Positions 37,117 through 53,729 of a DNA stretch of 64,000 bases are shown here, piece after piece (the stretch's first letter is position 1; each line of letters opens with the position of its first letter). The stretch lies in assembly GCF_900177345.1 (NCBI RefSeq), contig NZ_FWZT01000008.1:1-64000 (forward strand), read 5' to 3'. Below the pieces are notes generated by a model that worked only from the letters and a program-made list of their open reading frames with translations, was not told the DNA's origin and ran no database searches. The position numbers were made by a program, and so were the translations under genes. The DNA comes from Pseudobacteriovorax antillogorgiicola. Lineage in GTDB: Bacteria > Bdellovibrionota_B > Oligoflexia > Oligoflexales > Oligoflexaceae.

Positions 37117-38958
37117 ATGAAACATTACATTAAAAAAGCGTTCTCAATCCTTACTGGGATGTTCGCCCTGATTGGGCTAAGCACAACCCTACTCACTGTT
37201 GTGATGCTGATTGCCATCAGCCAGTTTCAGGGTGAGGTGTCCAGTGGTTCCGGGCTCTCAGCACCGGACATTGATGACTCCATCATCGAGATCGAACTCG
37301 ACGGCGTCATCCAAAGCCGCAGTATGGACCCACGGTCGCAATTCTTTAATGAAGTTTTCGGAGGACCGCGAGGGTATCAACTGAGCGATCTCAGGAAGAT
37401 GCTGCGTCGAGCCGCTGAAGATATCCGGGTTCGCGGAGTTTTCGTGAATATGCGCAATCCTGTAGCCAGTTTCTCGACAATGCAGGAGCTGAGACGATCG
37501 TTTATTGAGTTTCGAAAATCGGAAAAGCCCCTTTATGTGAACCTCTATGCAGGTGATACACTCACTTACTTCTTGGCGTCTGCAGGGGAGGTCATCAACC
37601 TGGCTCCCCTTGGTGGTCTCATGATCCCGGGTCCCGCATTTCAATTGACCTATTTTGGGCCAGCACTAGAAAAGCTTGGGGTTGAAATGGAAGTGTTTCA
37701 AGCAGGGAAGTATAAATCGGCTATGGAACCCTTTGTCCGGTCTGAACCTAGCGAACCAAGCCTTGAAATGTACCGTTCGATGGAATCTTCATTGAGGCAG
37801 TCGCTCATCAAAGCCATTGGCGAAAGTCGTGGGAAACCTGAAACTGACGTCGGCAACTGGTTGCGAGTATCCAGCTTTACCAGTGCTCAGGCTCTCAGCA
37901 TGGGGGCTGTGGATATGATGGATTATGAAACAGCGCTTCTCGACAAACTGAAGGAAGTTACGAAAACCGACAAGTTGGTGAAATGGCGTCCATACCTAGT
38001 TCACAGCGCTGATCTCGATGAGCCGAGGATTGCGGATGGCGACGATAAAGTCGGCTACGTGGAAGCTTCTGGGGAAATTCGCATGAGTTTTCAGAGAGGC
38101 GAGGAAAATGTTATTGCGCCGAAGCCTTTGATCAAAGAACTGCGCTGGCTTGCCAAGCAAGAGGATGTGAAGGCCATCGTGTTCCGTGTGAATAGCCCTG
38201 GTGGTTCAGCTCTTGCCTCTGATTTGATTTGGGAAGAGGTTCGGAAGCTGAATGAAGTGAAGCCTGTGGTTGTGTCTATGGGGCAGGTCGCGGCGTCCGG
38301 CGGCTACTATATCGCGGCACCAGCCAGCAAGATTTTTGCTGAGGCCCAAACGATAACAGGGTCTATCGGAGTGATTGGTGCGAGTCTGGTTGGTAAAGAC
38401 GTTCCCGATAAGTATGGCGTTCATTTTCACGTTGTCACCCAATCAGAGCGGGCCAAGTATCTAAACTTCACCGAGTCTGCCTCCGCAGAAGACAAACGCA
38501 TTATCGGTGAAAGCATCGATGACGTTTATCAAACCTTCTTAGATCGTGTAGCGCAAGGGCGAGCCAAGACCAAGGAGCAGATTCACGAATTGGCTCAGGG
38601 CCGCGTCTATACAGGCCAAGAGGCACTGGAACTAGGGCTTGTGGATCACCTCGGTGGTCGTCGGGAAGCATTCCGCATGGCGAAGGAACTTGGCCAGTTG
38701 AATCCTGAAAAACTCTATCCGGTGATGCAATATCAGCCTGAACCTCGCTCGTTTTTCGATTGCTTGGGTGCGCCTGAGCGCATGATGGAATGTCTTTCAG
38801 AATTGGAAGGTGGAATCCAATCCATGCTCATTGCTGATCCTGTAGCCAAACAGGTTCTCAAACCTATGAATCGCCTGCAGAAGCTTTTGCAAGACGACGA
38901 AGTGCTCATGTACTGGCCTGGACAAGTTCGCTGGTCTCACGGGAGTGATGCTCTGTGA
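37117..38958 (+). CDS. sppA: signal peptide peptidase SppA, 67K type
   Basis: The product is 613 residues, full-length long-form SppA. An N-terminal membrane anchor (about 12-36) precedes two tandem ClpP-like halves. The catalytic dyad of E. coli SppA maps to Lys200 (FQAGKYKSAMEPF) in the first half and Ser394 (VAASGGYYIAAPASKIFA) in the second. It clears remnant signal peptides in the inner membrane. The ATG start is 16 bases after GGCAGAAG. Its stop overlaps the GTG of the next gene (GTGA), so the DUF58/Bat-like genes are translationally coupled to it. This is unusual, since this slot normally holds a MoxR ATPase. No MoxR gene is seen in the window. Confidence 0.95.
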   Translation: MKHYIKKAFSILTGMFALIGLSTTLLTVVMLIAISQFQGEVSSGSGLSAPDIDDSIIEIELDGVIQSRSMDPRSQFFNEVFGGPRGYQLSDLRKMLRRAAEDIRVRGVFVNMRNPVASFSTMQELRRSFIEFRKSEKPLYVNLYAGDTLTYFLASAGEVINLAPLGGLMIPGPAFQLTYFGPALEKLGVEMEVFQAGKYKSAMEPFVRSEPSEPSLEMYRSMESSLRQSLIKAIGESRGKPETDVGNWLRVSSFTSAQALSMGAVDMMDYETALLDKLKEVTKTDKLVKWRPYLVHSADLDEPRIADGDDKVGYVEASGEIRMSFQRGEENVIAPKPLIKELRWLAKQEDVKAIVFRVNSPGGSALASDLIWEEVRKLNEVKPVVVSMGQVAASGGYYIAAPASKIFAEAQTITGSIGVIGASLVGKDVPDKYGVHFHVVTQSERAKYLNFTESASAEDKRIIGESIDDVYQTFLDRVAQGRAKTKEQIHELAQGRVYTGQEALELGLVDHLGGRREAFRMAKELGQLNPEKLYPVMQYQPEPRSFFDCLGAPERMMECLSELEGGIQSMLIADPVAKQVLKPMNRLQKLLQDDEVLMYWPGQVRWSHGSDAL

Positions 38959-39839
38959 TCTCGCCTGAATTACGGAAGCAAATCAAAACTCTTCAATTAA
39001 AGGCTGGCCACGATGTGAGCAACATCCTGGCTGGTGAGTATGTCTCGGCTTTCAAAGGTCGAGGCATGGAGTTTGATGAAGTTAGAGAATACTTTCCTGG
39101 GGACGATGTTCGCGCTATCGACTGGAATGTGACAGCGCGCATGGGTCAGCCTTTCATCAAAGTCTTTCGCGAAGAGCGTGAGATGACCCTGATGCTGATG
39201 GTGGACGTTAGCCCCTCTCAATTTTTTGGAACCCAAGAGAAGAGTAAAGTGGAGATCGCGGCTGAATTGGCTGCAGTACTGGCATTCTTAGCCATTCGGA
39301 ACAACGATAGGGTTGGAGTGATCCTGTTTTCGGATCATGTGGAGCAGTACATTCCCCCAATGAAGGGGCGGTCCCATATTTGGAATATTATTCGTTCGGT
39401 TCTGAGCCACGAGCCGAAGGGAAGAGCGACAAAACTCGACGAGGCCATTAGTCACTATCTACAGGTTATCAAGAGACGCAGTTTATGCTTTCTTATTTCA
39501 GACTTTCTTACCGAGGGTTACGAAAATAAACTCAAGCAGCTCGCAGCACGCCACGACTTGGTTTGCGTTGATATTGAAGATCCCCGAGAACAAGAGTGGG
39601 TTGATGCCGGATTGCTTGCTATCCAAGATAGCGAAACTGGGGAGCAGCTGGTGCTTGATTCGGGAGACCCTAATCTTTGGCGTCAGATCGAAGAGGCTTG
39701 GCAGGAGAAAGTTGATGGGCTTCAAGGTTTAGCACGAAAGTCAGGTTTTGATATCTTGAGCCTCCGAACCAATCAATCCATTGTTGATGGGTTGATGGCG
39801 GTATTCAAGCGTCGGGAACGACGGCAAAGGAGGCGCTGA
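38955..39839 (+). CDS. DUF58 domain protein
   Basis: The product is 294 residues of the DUF58 family (COG1721), which belong to MoxR/Bat neighbourhoods and carry a von Willebrand A-like fold. Family marks are GRGMEFDEVREYFPGDDVRAIDWN in two pieces and MLMVDVSPSQFFGTQEKSK, a degenerate MIDAS. The start is GTG 38955 overlapping the SppA stop by four bases, and it ends overlapping the BatA-like start by one base (TGATG). No signal peptide is present. It probably assists assembly or folding of envelope components with the two downstream VWA proteins, but its biochemical role is not established. Confidence 0.9.
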   Translation: MISPELRKQIKTLQLKAGHDVSNILAGEYVSAFKGRGMEFDEVREYFPGDDVRAIDWNVTARMGQPFIKVFREEREMTLMLMVDVSPSQFFGTQEKSKVEIAAELAAVLAFLAIRNNDRVGVILFSDHVEQYIPPMKGRSHIWNIIRSVLSHEPKGRATKLDEAISHYLQVIKRRSLCFLISDFLTEGYENKLKQLAARHDLVCVDIEDPREQEWVDAGLLAIQDSETGEQLVLDSGDPNLWRQIEEAWQEKVDGLQGLARKSGFDILSLRTNQSIVDGLMAVFKRRERRQRRR

Positions 39840-40777
39840 TGACCTTTGCATACCCTTATTTACTATTGTTTTTGGTACCCATTGCCATTTGGTTTGTTTG
39901 GTCCTGGCGGCGGACTACAGTGAAACCTCTAAAGTATCCAAGTCTGCGTGGCTTTGAAGTGCGGTCGATGACCTGGACCCGGTACCTTCATCGACTCCCT
40001 CTCATGCTACGAGTCCTGGCTATTATCCTGGTCCTGCTCGCCGCAGCGCGACCACAAGAGGTGGAACACGAAGTGCGGAAGTCAGGAGAAGGTCTCGATA
40101 TTCTATTAACGATAGACACCTCTGGTAGTATGAAGCAAAGCATCTCTTACCAGGGGCAGTGGGTTTCTCGCTTGGCAGCAGCTAAGGCTGTGGTGGGGAA
40201 TTTTATAGAGAAAAGGATCGACGACCGAATGGGCTTGGTGGTGTTCGGTGAGAACGCCTTTACCCAGGCACCGTTGACCTTAGACCATGACGTCCTGAAG
40301 AGCTTTGTAGATAATATCTATCTTAGGATGGCTGGCGACGGCACAGCCATTGGCTCAGCCATTATTACCAGCGTCAAACGCATGAAGGACCTGGAGTCCA
40401 AGTCGAAAATTGTGATTCTCCTGACTGATGGTCAAGACACAGTGGGAAAGGTGGGACCCCAGGCAGCAGCCAGTGCTGCCCGAGACTTAGGAGTCAAGAT
40501 CTACACGGTTGGTATTGGCGACCGCAGATCCCGTGATCTCGATGAACCGACTCTCAAGATGATCGCGCAAACTACAGGGGGTCAGTACTTTCGAGCTGCA
40601 AATGTGGAAAATCTGATCGAAGTCTATGAAACCATCAACCAGCTGGAAAAGAGTCGTGTGGAGGTCAAAGACTTTAGCCGCTACCATGAAAAGCACGAGA
40701 GTTTTCTGATTCCTGGTTTGCTCTTGTTGGCACTAGAGTTGCTGTTTCAACTGAGTCGATGGAGGGTTGTGGCATGA
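39839..40777 (+). CDS. BatA-like VWA domain membrane protein
   Basis: The product is 312 residues. Two N-terminal hydrophobic segments (about 5-22 and 58-76) precede a VWA domain with MIDAS DTSGSMK and later Thr and Asp sites (DGTAIGSAI, LLTDGQD), and a third hydrophobic segment is C-terminal (about 288-305). The layout matches BatA of the Bacteroides aerotolerance operon, where loss affects oxygen tolerance. It is embedded between DUF58 and BatB-like genes with one- and four-base overlaps. It is expected in the inner membrane with the VWA domain exposed. Confidence 0.9.
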   Translation: MTFAYPYLLLFLVPIAIWFVWSWRRTTVKPLKYPSLRGFEVRSMTWTRYLHRLPLMLRVLAIILVLLAAARPQEVEHEVRKSGEGLDILLTIDTSGSMKQSISYQGQWVSRLAAAKAVVGNFIEKRIDDRMGLVVFGENAFTQAPLTLDHDVLKSFVDNIYLRMAGDGTAIGSAIITSVKRMKDLESKSKIVILLTDGQDTVGKVGPQAAASAARDLGVKIYTVGIGDRRSRDLDEPTLKMIAQTTGGQYFRAANVENLIEVYETINQLEKSRVEVKDFSRYHEKHESFLIPGLLLLALELLFQLSRWRVVA

Positions 40778-41784
40778 CTTGGGGAGACGCTGAATACCTG
40801 TGGTTGCTAACTTTAACCCCGTTGGTATCGATTCTTATCATCCTTTCGAATATGTTTCGCAAGAAGCGCTTAGCTCGCTTTTTGGGTCAGCGATATAAAG
40901 ACTTAAGTCAGTCTTTGGAACGCAGGCGACAGGTTCTCTACCGTTGTCTAGCGTTAAGTTTGGCGTTTGCCTGCATTTGTATAGCCCTGGCTCGTCCTCG
41001 CTGGGGATATGAATGGCGAACCCTTGAACGGAAGGGTGCTGACATTATGGTTGTCGTGGACGTATCGAAGAGTATGAACGCTGAAGACATCAAGCCCAAT
41101 CGCTTACAGAGAGCACGGCGAGAAATCATCGATCTGCTTTCGATGTTGCAAGGTGATCGGATTGGTCTACTACAGTTTGCTGGTGTTGGCTTCGTTCAGT
41201 GCCCCTTGACCCTCGACTATATGGCCATGGAGCTTTTCCTCGATAGTCTTGGTGAAAGTATGATCCCTGTGCCAGGGTCTGCAATAGGCAATGCAATCCG
41301 CCTGGCCCATAAGAGCTTAATGGAAAGTGCTACTGAAGGCTCGGTCGGTAAATCGATCATTCTGATTACGGACGGTGAAGATCACGAGAGCGGTCCAATT
41401 CAGGCCGCTCAAGATGCTGCTAGTGATGGTGTGCGAATCTACCCCATTGGTATCGGCTCAGAAGGTGGTGCACCTATCCCCGACGGCGACGGCGGCTACG
41501 TAAAAGACCAGTCAGGTCGGATGGTTCTGTCGCGCTTGGATGAAGGTACCCTCGAAGAGATCGCTAGAATCACGGAAGGTCGTTACGTACGATCGACTAC
41601 TGGCGATCTCGATTTGGATATCATTTATAGTCAGCATATTCGCAAGGACCTGAAGCCGGGAAACATCGGTGAAACTCGGGAAAAGGTGTGGCATGAAAGC
41701 TTCTGGATCTTCGCCGTTGCAGCGATGTTTATACTGATATTCGATTTTCACATCCAAGGCCGAAGGCTAAGTACTGAAAAATAG
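40774..41784 (+). CDS. BatB-like VWA domain membrane protein
   Basis: The product is about 336 residues. The ATG at 40774 was chosen over the ATG at 40759 because GGAGG lies eight bases before it and it then overlaps the BatA stop as ATGA. An N-terminal membrane segment and a second one near 55-73 precede a VWA domain with MIDAS VDVSKSMN. A C-terminal membrane anchor (about 308-326, WIFAVAAMFILIF) follows. The mate of the preceding BatA-like protein. The C-terminal part ends in a short basic tail. Confidence 0.9.
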   Translation: MTWGDAEYLWLLTLTPLVSILIILSNMFRKKRLARFLGQRYKDLSQSLERRRQVLYRCLALSLAFACICIALARPRWGYEWRTLERKGADIMVVVDVSKSMNAEDIKPNRLQRARREIIDLLSMLQGDRIGLLQFAGVGFVQCPLTLDYMAMELFLDSLGESMIPVPGSAIGNAIRLAHKSLMESATEGSVGKSIILITDGEDHESGPIQAAQDAASDGVRIYPIGIGSEGGAPIPDGDGGYVKDQSGRMVLSRLDEGTLEEIARITEGRYVRSTTGDLDLDIIYSQHIRKDLKPGNIGETREKVWHESFWIFAVAAMFILIFDFHIQGRRLSTEK

Positions 41785-41868
41785 GCTTATATTGACTTAA
41801 CTGTTGAAAATGGCGTGATTATTCGCTAAAAATCCAGCGTTTACCTGATTTATGCTGGAAGTAGATTT

Positions 41869-42837
41869 ATGAAATCGTCAACCTCGGCAGCAAGTGATTT
41901 TTTCTTGGCCTTCGTGCTATTCGTCATCATGGCCTTGACCGGCTATATTGTCCTAAGTATGGGGCTTGAGCGAACTGGTGCGATCCACTCCAGCGGTAAG
42001 GGCAAGCCCATAGAAAACCAAGTGCCTCAAGAATCACATCAGGGCAAGCCCAGCGATTCACCACCTCCGGGCCAAAATGATAGCCAGGCGGAAGCTGCTG
42101 CTTCGACGCCGAACGAAGGTCTCTCGAAGCAGGATTCTGCTGGAAAGACCTCGGATAACAAAGATGTGACTCACTCGATTCAAGACATCGTTAGTACCGT
42201 GGATCAAGGCCAATGGCAGGTTGCGGAAGCGATGTTGCTTGAATATCTTAAGCTACACCCCAATGATGAGCAGGCTTTGGTGGAAATGGCTATGATTCAA
42301 CTGATCGACAAGCGGGACTCCCTTGCGGCCAAACCGTATTTGGAAAAGGTCGCTCTGGGAAATCCCAATAACGAATCGGTCATTAACGAACTCCTAACCA
42401 TCTACGAAGAGACCAATACCTATCAGGAAGGCTTGGCGTTTCTTAAGTCAATTCCCAATGAAAAGCGAAACTCTGGGATTGTTGACTATGGCATCGGTAG
42501 TGCCTTAGTGGGTCACGGGGATAGTGAAGGAGCTGTAGAATACTTATACCGCGCCCTAGACCAGGGGGGTGTCGAGCGAGCCACTGTGCAGGAGACCCTT
42601 GCGGATGCCTTTCTCGATGCTGGCCGCGTGGATGAGGCGATTCAGGGTTACATCGAGCTCCTAGACCAAGGAGGCTCTACGGAGCGCCAGCGAGCGCTTA
42701 ACGTAAAGGTGGTGACGGCTTATTTGGATCGCGGTGATCAAGACTTGGCTGTTGAAACTGTTCGCGAATGGCTAAGGGAGCATCCTCAAGACGAATTTAT
42801 GAATGATCTTTTTAAGGATATTAGCTCTTTGGAATAA
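41869..42837 (+). CDS. membrane-anchored TPR protein (BatC/BatE-like position)
   Basis: The product is 322 residues. A single membrane anchor (about 11-33) is followed by a Gln/Ser/Pro-rich linker (about 40-105) and at least four TPR-type helix pairs (for example QVAEAMLLEYLKLHP, YLYRALDQGG, VDEAIQGYIELLDQ). It lies 84 bases after BatB, where Bat operons commonly carry TPR proteins. It probably binds the VWA proteins; sequence cannot show this. A clear terminator follows at 42846. Confidence 0.82.
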   Translation: MKSSTSAASDFFLAFVLFVIMALTGYIVLSMGLERTGAIHSSGKGKPIENQVPQESHQGKPSDSPPPGQNDSQAEAAASTPNEGLSKQDSAGKTSDNKDVTHSIQDIVSTVDQGQWQVAEAMLLEYLKLHPNDEQALVEMAMIQLIDKRDSLAAKPYLEKVALGNPNNESVINELLTIYEETNTYQEGLAFLKSIPNEKRNSGIVDYGIGSALVGHGDSEGAVEYLYRALDQGGVERATVQETLADAFLDAGRVDEAIQGYIELLDQGGSTERQRALNVKVVTAYLDRGDQDLAVETVREWLREHPQDEFMNDLFKDISSLE

Positions 42838-43125: not shown

Positions 43126-43785
43126 ATGTCTTCAGAAGCCACAAAGCTCGATGAGAAATCTTACTCATTGAAAGAGTTCGATGAGATCTTCTTTTTGATA
43201 CTGAACGACCTTGGGGTGAATGCCATCAAAGGAGCGGCGGACTGTACGGATGCGATTTTTCGCCTTTCGTCCAACTATGTTGATCGTCCAGCTTTCGAAG
43301 CTCTTAAAAAGTTCTACGATCTCTACTTCAGCTCGGGTGATGTTGAGATCAGCAAAGACTCCGTGAACCAAGAAGTTAATGAGCTATTCGAAAAGATTCA
43401 AAAGAAAATCTCAGAGGGTGGCAACACTGATGATATAGAAGAGAATGAGGACCAAAAGAAGCAGCGCCTTGGCTTAGCGGGAGTTCAAAAACAGCTGGAG
43501 GGCTTGATTACCTTAAATGCTGGCATTAAGCGGCAGATTATCCCGGCATTGACATCTATGCAGTTTGAAGATGCAGTCAGCCAGCGAATGGATCACCTCC
43601 TACGTGGGTGGAAAATGATCAATGTCTTTTTGCATAACACAGCGCTTCTGGATGCTGAGCCTTTAGCCCGAGAATTGGCGAATACGTGCTCCTCGGTAGA
43701 AGAAACCCAAGCGTATTACAAAACGGTTCTGGGTGAAGAAGCCCCAGAAGGTCAAGGTGAGCGGAGTATTTTCTTAGAATTCTAA
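43126..43785 (+). CDS. CheZ-like phosphatase candidate 1
   Basis: About 219 residues, helical, cytoplasmic. The ATG at 43126 is preceded by AGAGGG; the frame extends 17 codons further to a TTG but without a ribosome site. The segment MQFEDAVSQRMDHLLRGW fits the CheZ active-site pattern D-x3-Q (Asp149 and Gln153 in this numbering), where CheZ inserts Gln into the CheY active site. A similar motif is present in the next gene. It follows the operon terminator at 42846 and is 16 bases from the next gene, so they are a pair. Overall it does not look like classical CheZ, so a CheZ-like receiver phosphatase is a hypothesis. Confidence 0.65.
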   Translation: MSSEATKLDEKSYSLKEFDEIFFLILNDLGVNAIKGAADCTDAIFRLSSNYVDRPAFEALKKFYDLYFSSGDVEISKDSVNQEVNELFEKIQKKISEGGNTDDIEENEDQKKQRLGLAGVQKQLEGLITLNAGIKRQIIPALTSMQFEDAVSQRMDHLLRGWKMINVFLHNTALLDAEPLARELANTCSSVEETQAYYKTVLGEEAPEGQGERSIFLEF

Positions 43786-43801
43786 CGAGGAGAACGACTG
43801 T

Positions 43802-44341
43802 ATGACTATGGCCGCGCAGACACTGGTTGAGAAATACCTAGAATTTACAAAGGATTCACTGAACTGGTGTGCAAAGGAATCAGAGGAATCCACTTCGAAG
43901 GTTTCCAATGCCATCGATTCGCTACTAAAAGATACGGCAAGGGTCTCGGAGCTGTCTACGGAGAGTCTCACGGCCATTGAAGGTCTTCATGCAAAATTAA
44001 AGGTTCACTTCGAGTCGGGCGCTTCTGTAGAAGACTTGATCAAAACATTGCAAGAGCTGGCTAATGATCATGACGAGATTAAAAATGTGATCCACCCGAT
44101 TATCGAATCCCTTCAGTTCCAAGATCGCCTGCGACAAAACCTAGAAAATATCGAAAAAATGATCCCTTGCTGGCTCAAGCATCGGCAGGCGGTCCCGGAA
44201 GGTGCTAGTGCTGAGCAGTTGCGCGCCTTCGGTGAAAATTTGCTAAACTGCACCACCATGAAGGAAGAGCGAGACTATGTTCGAGGCCATATTGATGGGC
44301 TGAAAGAAGAGGAAGAGAAAGAATCGGTCATGCTTTTCTAG
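43802..44341 (+). CDS. CheZ-like phosphatase candidate 2
   Basis: The product is 179 residues, helical, with segment SLQFQDRLRQNLENIEKM carrying Asp108 and Gln112, again the D-x3-Q spacing of CheZ (E. coli Asp143, Gln147). The surrounding long helices (about 1-100) are compatible with a four-helix bundle. The ATG is preceded by GAGGAG nine bases away. It is the second of the tandem pair and ends ten bases before the convergent recombinase gene. No cheA, cheY operon or flagellar gene is in the window, so the target could be a stand-alone receiver such as those at 47635, 52673 or 18691. Whether it really dephosphorylates a receiver is untested. Confidence 0.65.
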   Translation: MTMAAQTLVEKYLEFTKDSLNWCAKESEESTSKVSNAIDSLLKDTARVSELSTESLTAIEGLHAKLKVHFESGASVEDLIKTLQELANDHDEIKNVIHPIIESLQFQDRLRQNLENIEKMIPCWLKHRQAVPEGASAEQLRAFGENLLNCTTMKEERDYVRGHIDGLKEEEEKESVMLF

Positions 44342-44351
44342 TTCTATAAGG

Positions 44352-44954
44352 TCAGAGCTGCTGCACCATTTTATGAACCGCTCCGTAGCTAATGCCCAAG
44401 TCCTTAGCGATCGCTCTGAGGCTTAAGCCTTGGGCTCTCAAAGAGCGAACTTGCTCTTTGTGCTCCTCGGTGAGTTTACTCGGGGGCCCTAGCTTGACGC
44501 CCCGCTTCTTCGCTGCCTCAAGGCCCGCTTTGACCCTTGTCACAATTGTTTGGCGTTCGATTTCTGCAATTTCAGCAAATGCTGCGAGCATGGTTCGTCT
44601 GAAAGGGTTTTCGTGTCCGAGGTTCAAGACAGGCTGGGTCACAGAAATAAATCCTACCCCGAGTTCGTCGAGAGATAGTAGAGTTTTGATAGCGTCAGAA
44701 GCATTTCTGCTAAAGCGATCGAGACGATATACGACGATCGTATCGATTTTTCCGCTCTGCGCGAATTTTAAGAGATCTTGGTAGCCTGGCCTTTTATCTG
44801 TGCTACCGCTGATGCCTTCATCCTGAAATACAGATATTTTTCGTGGTTTCTTACTGTCTTCCAGAAGGTTGAGCCAAGTTTCTACAGCCTGCTTTTGGCT
44901 TTGCAAGTCTTGCCGTTCTGTTGACACCCTATAATAGATAGCAATGTGTTTCAT
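44352..44954 (-). CDS. serine recombinase (resolvase/invertase), copy 1
   Basis: The product is 200 residues. The resolvase-type catalytic domain has Ser11 in YYRVSTERQ and Arg residues in VYRLDRFSRN, and the conserved ENPFRRTMLAAFAEIAEIER helix is intact. A C-terminal helix-turn-helix follows (LSLRAIAKDLGISYGAVHKM). Small-serine-recombinase length is normal. AAGGAGG precedes the ATG. A paralogue of about two-thirds identity by eye lies at 53115-53729, in the same orientation. No transposon ends are seen. A symmetric sequence at 44975-44993 lies just upstream of the start. It could act on res-like sites or an invertible segment. Confidence 0.9.
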   Translation of the reverse strand: MKHIAIYYRVSTERQDLQSQKQAVETWLNLLEDSKKPRKISVFQDEGISGSTDKRPGYQDLLKFAQSGKIDTIVVYRLDRFSRNASDAIKTLLSLDELGVGFISVTQPVLNLGHENPFRRTMLAAFAEIAEIERQTIVTRVKAGLEAAKKRGVKLGPPSKLTEEHKEQVRSLRAQGLSLRAIAKDLGISYGAVHKMVQQL

Positions 44955-44993: not shown

Positions 44994-45145
44994 TCTTTCG
45001 CAAGCTTATTATAGCAGTCTTACTTTGTCGAATAGGTTTTTGCCTAGGCACATAGGATCTTCGGACTTATATTCAGCGACTAAGACTTTTGTTTAAGAAT
45101 AATCACAGGATGCCGATGCTATGGAGGCTTCGTAGAGAAGGTTGT

Positions 45146-46792
45146 ATGAAGACTTCGAACTGGTTAAATTCAACAAAAGAATTCCTCCAACCTTCAGTTG
45201 CTAACCAACTGATGCTATGGATCATAGTGTCCTCTTTTGTTGTCACACTAGGGGTGTCCACCGTTCAACTCTACTTTGATTTTAGGGCTAGTATTGAATC
45301 TCTTGAAGAGGATTTGCAAGAGATTCAAAGGACCATGGTGCCGAGTCTCACTCGCAGTGTTTGGCTGATGGATCGCGAGCAAATTCATGTGGGAATGAAA
45401 GGCCTACTGCTTTACGACAAAATTGTGACGGTTAAGATAGAGGCCGAAGATGGTAGTGTGTTCGAGTTAGGCGAGACTGACTCTGAAGAGATTAAGGAAA
45501 AGACCTTTGCCATGGAGTTCAAAAATCAGGAGCAGGCTTGGAAGTTAGGAACCATTGTGCTGCAGGTGGATATGGCGCCAATCTACCGAAACCTGTGGCG
45601 CGAAGGTGGAGACATCCTTTTCAACAACCTCATTCTAGTCGCTACGATCGTATTCATCGTTATTTGGTTTACTCGATTTTTAATTGCTCAGCCTTTATCG
45701 ATTCTAGCCAATCATGCCCGAGGCATCCGATTTCGAGATAAGCAAGAGAACATGGATCACAAGTACATGAGTTACAAGCATGAGATTGGTCAAGTCTTCC
45801 GAGCAGTCGCTCAGCTAGAAGAAAACCTCACGGAAGATTATCGCATTCGGCTGAGAGCTGAAGATGCCTTAAAGAAATCCCAGGAAAAGCTCAAGGAATT
45901 GATAAAGTCGCGAACCAAGCAATTGGACGAAGCAACCAATGATTTGGTAGAGTCATCCCGTAAAGCAGGGATGGCTGAAGTTGCCACTGGGGTGCTTCAT
46001 AATATTGGGAATGTGATCACCGGTGTCAATGTCAATGTCCAAAGTCTAGAACAGTACTATCGTAAGTCAGCGTCCCATCGCTTGCCTGATTTGGTTAAAC
46101 TGTTCGAATCCCAAGGGGATCAGCTGCCCGAATACCTCTCTGATAGTAAACGGCGAGAGTCTGTGGTAGGTTACATGAATGCAATCGTTTCTGATTTAGA
46201 AAAGAATCGTGAGGCGCACTTACAAACGGTTCAAAGCCTCAGCCAAAACATCAAACATGTCATGCAGCTAGTATCACAGCAGCAGGCCAATGCCAAGCAC
46301 TCAGGTATTATCATCAACTTTTCCATCACTGATGCTATTCAAGACGTTCTGGATTTGAAGGCTCATGATATCAACTCAAACCAGATTGAAGTCACTTTCA
46401 ATGACGAAACCCAACTATCCATATCGAGCGATCGTCACAAGGTTCTTCAGATTTTGACCAACCTTATATCAAATGCCATACAAGCCACGGAGCGCTTGGA
46501 TCGCCCTCGCAGTATCAACATTCATCAGAAAAAAATGGGAGCCTTTGTTCATATTGACATTAGGGATAATGGCATTGGCATTCCGGCTGAGAATATCGAT
46601 AAGCTGTTCCGCTTTGGCTTCACAACTAAGCCAACGGGCAACGGCTTTGGGCTGCATAGTAGTGCCATTGATGCGACCGAACTTGGTGGCAAGCTCAGCG
46701 TCTTTTCAGAAGGGCCGAATAAAGGTGCGACGTTCAAATTAAAGATCCCGTTGGAGTCTAAGAAAGCCACCACGGTGGAGCAGGCCGGCTAA
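45146..46792 (+). CDS. membrane sensor histidine kinase
   Basis: About 548 residues from the ATG at 45146 (AGAAGG before it; ATGs at 45110 and 45116 are alternatives). TM1 at about 22-43 and TM2 at about 159-180 flank an extracytoplasmic sensor of about 115 residues. A HAMP-like segment and a coiled-coil follow. The H-box is GMAEVATGVLHNIGN with His285. The ATP-binding domain has N-box LISNAIQ, G1 DNGIGIP, F-box FRFGFTTK and G2 GNGFGLHSS, so it is complete and likely active. The sensor domain is not recognised. Candidate partners are the single receivers at 47635 and 52673. It stands in a region with no DNA-binding response regulator, so signalling may end in protein interactions. Confidence 0.9.
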   Translation: MKTSNWLNSTKEFLQPSVANQLMLWIIVSSFVVTLGVSTVQLYFDFRASIESLEEDLQEIQRTMVPSLTRSVWLMDREQIHVGMKGLLLYDKIVTVKIEAEDGSVFELGETDSEEIKEKTFAMEFKNQEQAWKLGTIVLQVDMAPIYRNLWREGGDILFNNLILVATIVFIVIWFTRFLIAQPLSILANHARGIRFRDKQENMDHKYMSYKHEIGQVFRAVAQLEENLTEDYRIRLRAEDALKKSQEKLKELIKSRTKQLDEATNDLVESSRKAGMAEVATGVLHNIGNVITGVNVNVQSLEQYYRKSASHRLPDLVKLFESQGDQLPEYLSDSKRRESVVGYMNAIVSDLEKNREAHLQTVQSLSQNIKHVMQLVSQQQANAKHSGIIINFSITDAIQDVLDLKAHDINSNQIEVTFNDETQLSISSDRHKVLQILTNLISNAIQATERLDRPRSINIHQKKMGAFVHIDIRDNGIGIPAENIDKLFRFGFTTKPTGNGFGLHSSAIDATELGGKLSVFSEGPNKGATFKLKIPLESKKATTVEQAG

Positions 46793-47298: not shown

Positions 47299-47634
47299 TG
47301 GCTGATCACCATCAAATCTTGGCGAGATCATTCTTTCTTAAGGGTAAAGATAGAAGCTTTCTTCGGGCAGCCGTAAGAAAGTGATCGAGGCTTTCATATT
47401 TTCTAGCCTAACAATGGGATCTAGCATGGGTTTTATAGCCGATTCAGACCGACAATTCTTACCTAATTTTTTTCTTGGGAAGTCTTAAATTGCAAAAAGT
47501 GTCACCGATGGTGCTTCATATAAGGCAACAGTCATCGAGTTAATGTCTCTGAACCTTAAAGATGATGCCGTACTTTTAGTGCTAACCAGCATAATCCCTT
47601 GGTAAAAACAAGATTGAACCGTAGAGAGGTTTTC
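47299..47634. other. intergenic region before a receiver gene
   Basis: About 336 bases. The 47345-47375 segment holds a short inverted repeat (CTTTCTT ... AAGAAAG, loop 11). The rest is AT-rich and should contain the promoter of the receiver gene at 47635. No open frame with a ribosome site is seen. Confidence 0.35.
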
Positions 47635-48012
47635 ATGAGTAAAAGTAAGCTTCGAGTCTTATATGTCGATGACGATCCATGCCAACTAGAAGTTGCGAAG
47701 GAGTTACTAACTCTTCACTTTGATGTGGAAGTTGCTTTTTGCACTCGGAAAGCCATGGAAATCTTGGACGACGATCACTTCGATTTACTGATTACAGATA
47801 TTGAAATGCCGCAGGAATCTGGCTTCACATTTGCCAAAAAAGTTAGGGGCAGGCACCCAGAGTTAGGGATGATCGCCGTTTCTGGGGGGGATCAGGACTC
47901 CGTGGAGCAATTTCGTCAGGAGTCCATTTCATTGTTTTTTGATTATATCCAAAAACCTGTGCAATGGGACGATCTAATAACCCGGTATTCAAATGACTCT
48001 GCCAACTCCTGA
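47635..48012 (+). CDS. single-domain response regulator (CheY-like)
   Basis: About 125 residues. The ATG at 47635 has GAGAGG six bases upstream. Receiver residues are complete: acidic Asp12-13-14, phospho-acceptor Asp55 (LLITDIEMP), Ser83 (AVSGGD), Lys107 (IQKPVQW). No output domain is present, so it presumably works by protein-protein contact or as a phosphate shuttle. It ends four bases before the convergent PhoX-type gene. It lies about 0.8 kb downstream of the histidine-kinase gene, with a strong terminator between; a phosphorelay is possible. Confidence 0.88.
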   Translation: MSKSKLRVLYVDDDPCQLEVAKELLTLHFDVEVAFCTRKAMEILDDDHFDLLITDIEMPQESGFTFAKKVRGRHPELGMIAVSGGDQDSVEQFRQESISLFFDYIQKPVQWDDLITRYSNDSANS

Positions 48013-52672: not shown

Positions 52673-53044
52673 ATGGCTAAAGTCTTAGTTGTTGATGATT
52701 CTGAGATGCAGCGCAACAACATTAGAGACATCATTGTCCAGCGTGGCCATGAAGTGATCACTGCAGCAAACGGACAAGAAGGTATCGAAAAGTATCAGGC
52801 GAACACGATCAATCTGGTTCTCGCTGACCACAACATGCCGATTCTAACTGGGTTAGAAATGTGTAAAGAGATCCACTCCATTGCTAATGGTAGTCCGCCA
52901 CCGATCATCATGATCACAACGGAAGTGGGTGATGAAGAAATTAAAGCCCAAGCCAAGCAATATGGGGTGAAAGCCTGGCTCGTAAAGCCTTACAAGAATG
53001 AAGCAATCGATCTGATTCTCAAGAAGCTACTTGCTAGCCAATAG
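52673..53044 (+). CDS. single-domain response regulator (CheY-like)
   Basis: The product is 123 residues and close to the consensus CheY fold: acidic Asp8-9, phospho-acceptor Asp52 (LVLADHNMP), Thr83 (MITTE) and Lys106 (LVKPYKN). The ribosome site is CGGAGG. No output domain is present. Its N-terminal and active-site residues are typical of PilG/CheY-type single receivers. Candidates for phosphatase control are the CheZ-like pair at 43126-44341, but they are separated by 8 kb. The gene is followed by a candidate terminator at 53056 and a convergent recombinase gene. Confidence 0.9.
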   Translation: MAKVLVVDDSEMQRNNIRDIIVQRGHEVITAANGQEGIEKYQANTINLVLADHNMPILTGLEMCKEIHSIANGSPPPIIMITTEVGDEEIKAQAKQYGVKAWLVKPYKNEAIDLILKKLLASQ

Positions 53045-53114: not shown

Positions 53115-53729
53115 TTATGCCTCAATATCGGGCCCTTTGATCAGAGTTTGTACAGTGCCATTGCTTAAGCCAGTTTCCTCTGCGATTTCCTTATAAGATA
53201 GACCTGTAGAACGCAGTTTTCTGGCTCGGAGCTGCGCATCTTTTGTGAGCTTAGACGGGCGGCCAAGGCGAACTCCCCGTTTCTTCGCTGCATCGAGTCC
53301 AGACTTGACCCTCGCGACGATGGTTTCCCGTTCGATCTCTGCAATCTCTGAAAATGCTGCTAGCATGGTTCGGCGAAAAGGGTTTTCATGACCTAGGTTC
53401 AGGACGGGTTGGGTGACAGAGATGAAGGCGACCCCTGCCTGATCGAGGGTTAAAAGAGTTTGAATTGCATCGGTTGCATTACGACTCATCCGGTCCAGTC
53501 GATAGACGATGATCGTATCAATTTTTTGTTCGAAAGCTGTTTTTAAAAGCTTTTGATACCCAGGGCGATTATTGGTTTTACCCGAGATGCCCTGATCCTT
53601 GAAAACTTTAATAGACTTAGGCTGGCGTTCCGTTGGAAGGCTTTTGAGCCAGGTTTCGACTGCATTCTGTTGGCTAGCTAGATCCTGCTTATCGGTGGAT
53701 ACACGGTAGTATATCCCAATACTTTTCAT
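53115..53729 (-). CDS. serine recombinase (resolvase/invertase), copy 2
   Basis: The product is 204 residues. Catalytic Ser11 is in YYRVSTDKQ, the Arg motif is VYRLDRMSRN, the long helix ENPFRRTMLAAFSEIAEIER is identical to copy 1 except for one residue, and a C-terminal helix-turn-helix (LSYKEIAEETGLSNGTVQTL) follows. Identity with copy 1 is high in the catalytic half and lower in the HTH, so the two may recognise different DNA. Same orientation as copy 1, 8.2 kb apart, with ordinary genes between. AGGGA precedes the ATG. Confidence 0.9.
   Translation of the reverse strand: MKSIGIYYRVSTDKQDLASQQNAVETWLKSLPTERQPKSIKVFKDQGISGKTNNRPGYQKLLKTAFEQKIDTIIVYRLDRMSRNATDAIQTLLTLDQAGVAFISVTQPVLNLGHENPFRRTMLAAFSEIAEIERETIVARVKSGLDAAKKRGVRLGRPSKLTKDAQLRARKLRSTGLSYKEIAEETGLSNGTVQTLIKGPDIEA

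Follow-up and report, generated by a model that had tools for sequence, protein, structure and literature searches.

Do two small helical proteins, encoded side by side in Pseudobacteriovorax antillogorgiicola, act together on receivers in the manner of the phosphatase CheZ? In bacterial chemotaxis CheZ is the enzyme that terminates the signal. Its aspartate orients the enzyme on the receiver, its glutamine positions the water that attacks the receiver aspartyl phosphate, and its C-terminal peptide tethers CheY. Receiver phosphatases set the duration of the chemotaxis signal, and many bacteria with full chemosensory arrays have none that is recognisable. The two genes, here called A and B, lie in a stretch of 64,000 nucleotides that we term the window. 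They are on the same (+) strand with a spacing of 16 bases, and each contains a D-x3-Q motif, FEDAVSQ in A (D149 and Q153) and FQDRLRQ in B (D108 and Q112), as the first-pass annotation of the window had reported. Gene A starts at ATG 43126 and its stop is at 43785; the mechanical open reading frame begins at TTG 43075. The features are:

43126..43785, + strand: gene A, a 219-aa helical CheZ-like protein with the motif SMQFEDAVSQR (D149, Q153) and the tail RSIFLEF
43555..43587, + strand: motif block SMQFEDAVSQR of A, residues 144-154, codons counted from ATG 43126
43802..44341, + strand: gene B, a 179-aa helical CheZ-like protein with the motif SLQFQDRLRQ (D108, Q112) and the tail ESVMLF
44108..44137, + strand: motif block SLQFQDRLRQ of B, residues 103-112, codons counted from ATG 43802

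Of the 59 proteins of the window 36 contain a bare D-x3-Q, as do about 50% of 782 neighbouring proteins. Since half of proteins have it, its presence in two is not evidence by itself, and we rejected it as such. It becomes evidence only through conservation and through the register that B shares with CheZ. Homologues were sought in 58 genomes of the class, and the 'phylum' search comprised the same 58. A and B are adjacent at 19 loci in 17 genomes, always with A upstream and with gaps of 1-62 bases, and an eighteenth genome has a fragment of A where a contig ends. Within the B family F106, Q107, D108 and Q112 are invariant (19/19 homologues), and the D-x3-Q block is the most conserved part of the protein. 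In the A family D149 and R154 are invariant among the 19 tandem homologues, the aspartate being present in 22 of 22 when three fusion proteins are included; position 153 is glutamine in 17 of the 19, with histidine and lysine in the other two. Lack of conservation in homologues, which the first-pass annotation had named as counting against its proposal, is thus not what we find.

The conserved block of CheZ consists of AXXFQ and then DXXXQ (PMC7750401). In B the FQ precedes the aspartate, and residue 103, at -5 from D108, is alanine in 13 of 19 homologues and serine in five, including B of the window. The A family matches the AXXFQ block only partly, with S-M-Q-F/C-E. Our references for CheZ were Pfam PF04344, the E. 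coli protein (PDB 1kmi chain Z) and an alignment of seven Proteobacterial sequences. Five of the 16 near-invariant columns of B (L, F, Q, D and Q) coincide with conserved columns of CheZ in a single register, compared with 0 of 500 column shuffles. By the same column-shuffle test the near-invariant columns of A have no register match with CheZ.

Direct membership of the CheZ family is not supported. The search with a CheZ profile that the first-pass annotation had suggested, run with PF04344, went against membership: B scored 14.4 bits (E = 0.035), below the curated cut-off of 30.7 bits, and A had no score. Using hhalign, A or B compared with the seven-sequence CheZ alignment gave results equal to those of reversed decoys, profile searches of the PDB did not find CheZ, and the Foldseek search described below was null. 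We therefore call the proteins CheZ-like, and not CheZ. The profiles tried for CheC, CheX and FliY (PF04509 and PF13690) gave no match in A or B at E values up to 10, and neither protein has a family above cut-off in Pfam, NCBIfam or PHROGs. A plasmid search with B gave no match, and no description of the A/B family was found in a literature search that covered few subscription papers.

The likeness to CheZ lies in helical character, similar length, the AXXFQ-DXXXQ block of B and a C-terminal tail ending in phenylalanine. There are also differences. A and B are two different proteins whereas CheZ is one homodimer, no cheY adjoins them, and the CheZ tail VDDLLxSLGF, which forms the CheY-binding helix, is absent from both. 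In its place B has a short acidic-hydrophobic tail; 16 of the 18 complete B proteins end in phenylalanine, mostly preceded by an acidic and two hydrophobic residues. There is a precedent for a diverged CheZ. In 2010 Lertsethtakarn and Ottemann reportedly described a remote Helicobacter pylori CheZ that is too diverged for ordinary similarity and is still a phosphatase. That is a single protein, in contrast to the A and B pair, and we liken the two by description only.

The D-x3-Q motif had been placed on a helix, and for B the AlphaFold2 model (pLDDT 79, pTM 0.61) bears this out. It contains helices at 5-48, 53-72, 76-89 and 91-130 together with two short ones, and D108 and Q112 lie in the fourth. 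On a helical wheel the angle between the hydrophobic moment and the aspartate and glutamine is ~150-170 degrees in each of A, B and CheZ; 41% of control sites pass the same test. By this measure the motifs of A and B would face away from the hydrophobic side of their helix, as in CheZ. The fusion protein is predicted to be all-helical (pLDDT 74, pTM 0.69), and the model is best in the linker and around the points where the two motif helices end. When the fusions were aligned by MAFFT together with all A and B sequences the A rows were placed on the B half. Folding therefore used an alignment of A sequences only, so that the model of the B half rests on three sequences. In CheZ the hairpins form a dimeric four-helix bundle. 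Foldseek comparison of the long-helical B and fusion models with the PDB yielded nothing at E <= 0.001, and 1kmi (CheZ) was absent among the 50 matches listed; the method is ill suited to long helical hairpins.

A and B are themselves homologous. Direct comparison by hhalign gives a probability of 97% (E = 5.6e-11) and a search with the A profile recovers B (6e-8), from which we take the two to be distant paralogues. The pairwise distances within the two families are correlated (mirror-tree r = 0.88, a value reached by 0 of 5000 permutations), which indicates joint inheritance and is not proof of contact. Three Pseudomonadales MAGs (L108-L110) each encode a single protein of 406-419 aa that matches both profiles, with the A half first. 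Such a fusion suggests binding between the separate chains, without proving it. In all three the B half retains QFQDRIRQ. The A half retains QFED and has S, L or A in the position of the glutamine, which is therefore lost in all three. This loss, together with the two exceptions among the tandem homologues, points to B as the catalytic protein and A as its partner. To describe A and B as two copies is a little inexact; with B strictly conserved and A tolerating loss of the glutamine, partner is the more fitting word for A.

The first-pass annotation had also remarked that the region has no chemotaxis genes. This is true of the surroundings, but the genome has 13 CheW-domain matches and one FliM. 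Of the 37 genomes with six or more CheW-domain matches 18 have the A-B pair, and of the remaining 21 none has it (Fisher p = 6e-5, uncorrected for phylogeny). Every one of the 18 genomes with the pair has chemosensory arrays. Among the 58 genomes there is no association of the pair with FliM, and three pair-bearing genomes have no FliM; the output may therefore be something other than the flagellar motor. CheZ above the Pfam cut-off is absent from all 58 genomes, as is CheC. CheX-type domains do occur, with 12 matches in the window's own genome, so that a different phosphatase of CheY-P may exist there. Twelve is an unusually large number for one genome.

The A profile finds two paralogues in the same genome, at 2.5e-8 and 4e-4, and a third protein there carries a block like that of B:

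L082:832-1518 and 1938-2633, contig C1: A-profile matches with a CheY-like receiver between them
L083:9551-11296, - strand, contig C25: cytoplasmic MCP with a C-terminal LSLQFQDITRQ block and the tail DVLFF

The paralogue-receiver-paralogue arrangement recurs in genome G030. Operons with this layout, a stand-alone CheY-like receiver between two CheZ-like paralogues, lie at L082:832-2633 (contig C1) and L084:8863-10608. The C1 paralogues share the D-x3-Q-R motif with A. They differ from A and B in flanking a receiver, and in having neither FQ before the aspartate nor a phenylalanine tail. Of the positional evidence they hint most strongly that the superfamily may act on receivers, and as a candidate for a dedicated receiver-phosphatase module an operon of this type is stronger than A and B themselves.

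The MCP resembles B in its motif region, and its tail resembles those of some B homologues. It differs in that a chemoreceptor signalling domain precedes the block and in that only about 40 columns match B. Its C-terminal part aligns by hhalign with B at E = 4.8e-6 and with CheZ at E = 3.5e-4, compared with 0.04-0.6 for reversed decoys, and would link B to CheZ by an indirect chain only. In many genomes of the class the best sub-threshold match to CheZ is a protein similar to this MCP, suggesting a receptor with a CheZ-like element as an integral part. When the genome was scanned for acidic-hydrophobic-FF C-termini these were not enriched relative to the control, and the MCP was the only match in a frame of more than 100 codons; the shared tail is therefore suggestive only.

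From these comparisons a CheZ-like receiver phosphatase is the most likely function of the pair; the observation that drew attention to the locus was correct, and the reasoning attached to it was weak. We give somewhat better than an even chance to such a phosphatase with B as the catalytic subunit and A as its partner. A and B would then be two subunits, each a long helical protein, of a phosphatase for a CheY-type receiver of a chemosensory system. B would hold the catalytic block, its aspartate orienting the protein on the receiver and its glutamine positioning water for attack on the aspartyl phosphate, as in CheZ. Its short acidic-hydrophobic tail ending in phenylalanine may plausibly tether a partner, as the tail of CheZ does CheY. 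A would be the paired subunit. It keeps the aspartate yet can lose the glutamine, and so it probably completes a helical bundle or regulates B.

That the pair is inseparable in bacteria with no recognisable CheZ suggests that the CheZ off-switch has a version in two parts, though this is not proof. A fuller proposal is of a split, obligate two-subunit CheZ with a catalytic B and an A drifting to a pseudo-enzyme, fused elsewhere, replacing CheZ in a class without it, beside a phosphatase-receiver-phosphatase operon of the same superfamily. We offer this tentatively, and would not expect all of it to hold. If the phosphatase reading is true, a two-subunit CheZ-like family fills the phosphatase gap in the Oligoflexus/Pseudobacteriovorax group, and it shows the division of a homodimeric signalling enzyme into catalytic and non-catalytic chains. 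Both proteins are small and soluble, which makes the idea directly testable.

The alternative that survives best, though we think it unlikely, is that the pair has no catalytic role. A and B would then serve as a sink for CheY-P or as a localisation factor by binding a receiver or array protein of the chemosensory system, and the conserved D-x3-Q face would be a docking surface. The dispensable glutamine of A, in tandem homologues and fusions alike, would fit this, as would co-occurrence with CheW and not FliM. So would the cytoplasmic MCP, which carries the same block and a DVLFF tail at its C-terminal end and in which the two could conceivably be structural. A docking face would not obviously need glutamine, however, and B has it in 19 of 19 tandem homologues and in the B halves of all three fusions.

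In its genomic surroundings the pair keeps no constant company; the adjoining genes differ between lineages and, apart from the cases given next, are unrelated. Directly upstream of A and B we find, by eye:

37117-42837: Bat-type operon (DUF58, two VWA proteins and a TPR protein)

In the window's family the pair lies after this operon and before a serine recombinase gene (Pfam), and in another family (genome G013, L072) it precedes a Bat-type operon. A and B could then be helical proteins with an incidental D-x3-Q and some other function, for example one tied to this operon. Bat-like genes do adjoin the pair in two families, the bare motif is present in half of proteins, and the tests of CheZ membership fail. 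Nevertheless the block is the most conserved part of B and is in register with CheZ, and with the chemosensory co-occurrence and the receiver-flanking paralogues this makes an incidental motif improbable.

There remains the original proposal, in which the nearby receivers were the substrates. Both are confirmed as stand-alone receivers (Pfam Response_reg):

47599-48012: receiver, reported at 47635
52673-53044: receiver, with 44% identity to that of the C1 operon

That A and B act separately as phosphatases of these two in a local phosphorelay draws on their proximity, on that identity and on a histidine kinase at 45089, but we regard it as very unlikely, since neither receiver is kept near A and B in any relative examined, where no receiver or che gene is retained next to the pair and the neighbours vary by lineage. 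Of the dedicated receiver phosphatases originally suggested, the link to the window's receivers falls away; what stands is that the two proteins are helical and related, with a conserved D-x3-Q that the helical wheel places outward, that B has FQ and mostly alanine before it, that the pair tracks arrays, and that receiver-flanking paralogues exist.

The histidine kinase (45089-46792) has CHASE5 and HATPase_c domains, and Pfam found no HisKA. Two small hemerythrin-like proteins, recognised by eye, follow the A-B pair in another genome (G044, L077:5120-7292). Two related serine recombinase genes in the window, at 44352-44954 and 53115-53729 (both - strand), are ~8 kb apart, and several relatives in the window's family keep two such genes near A and B.
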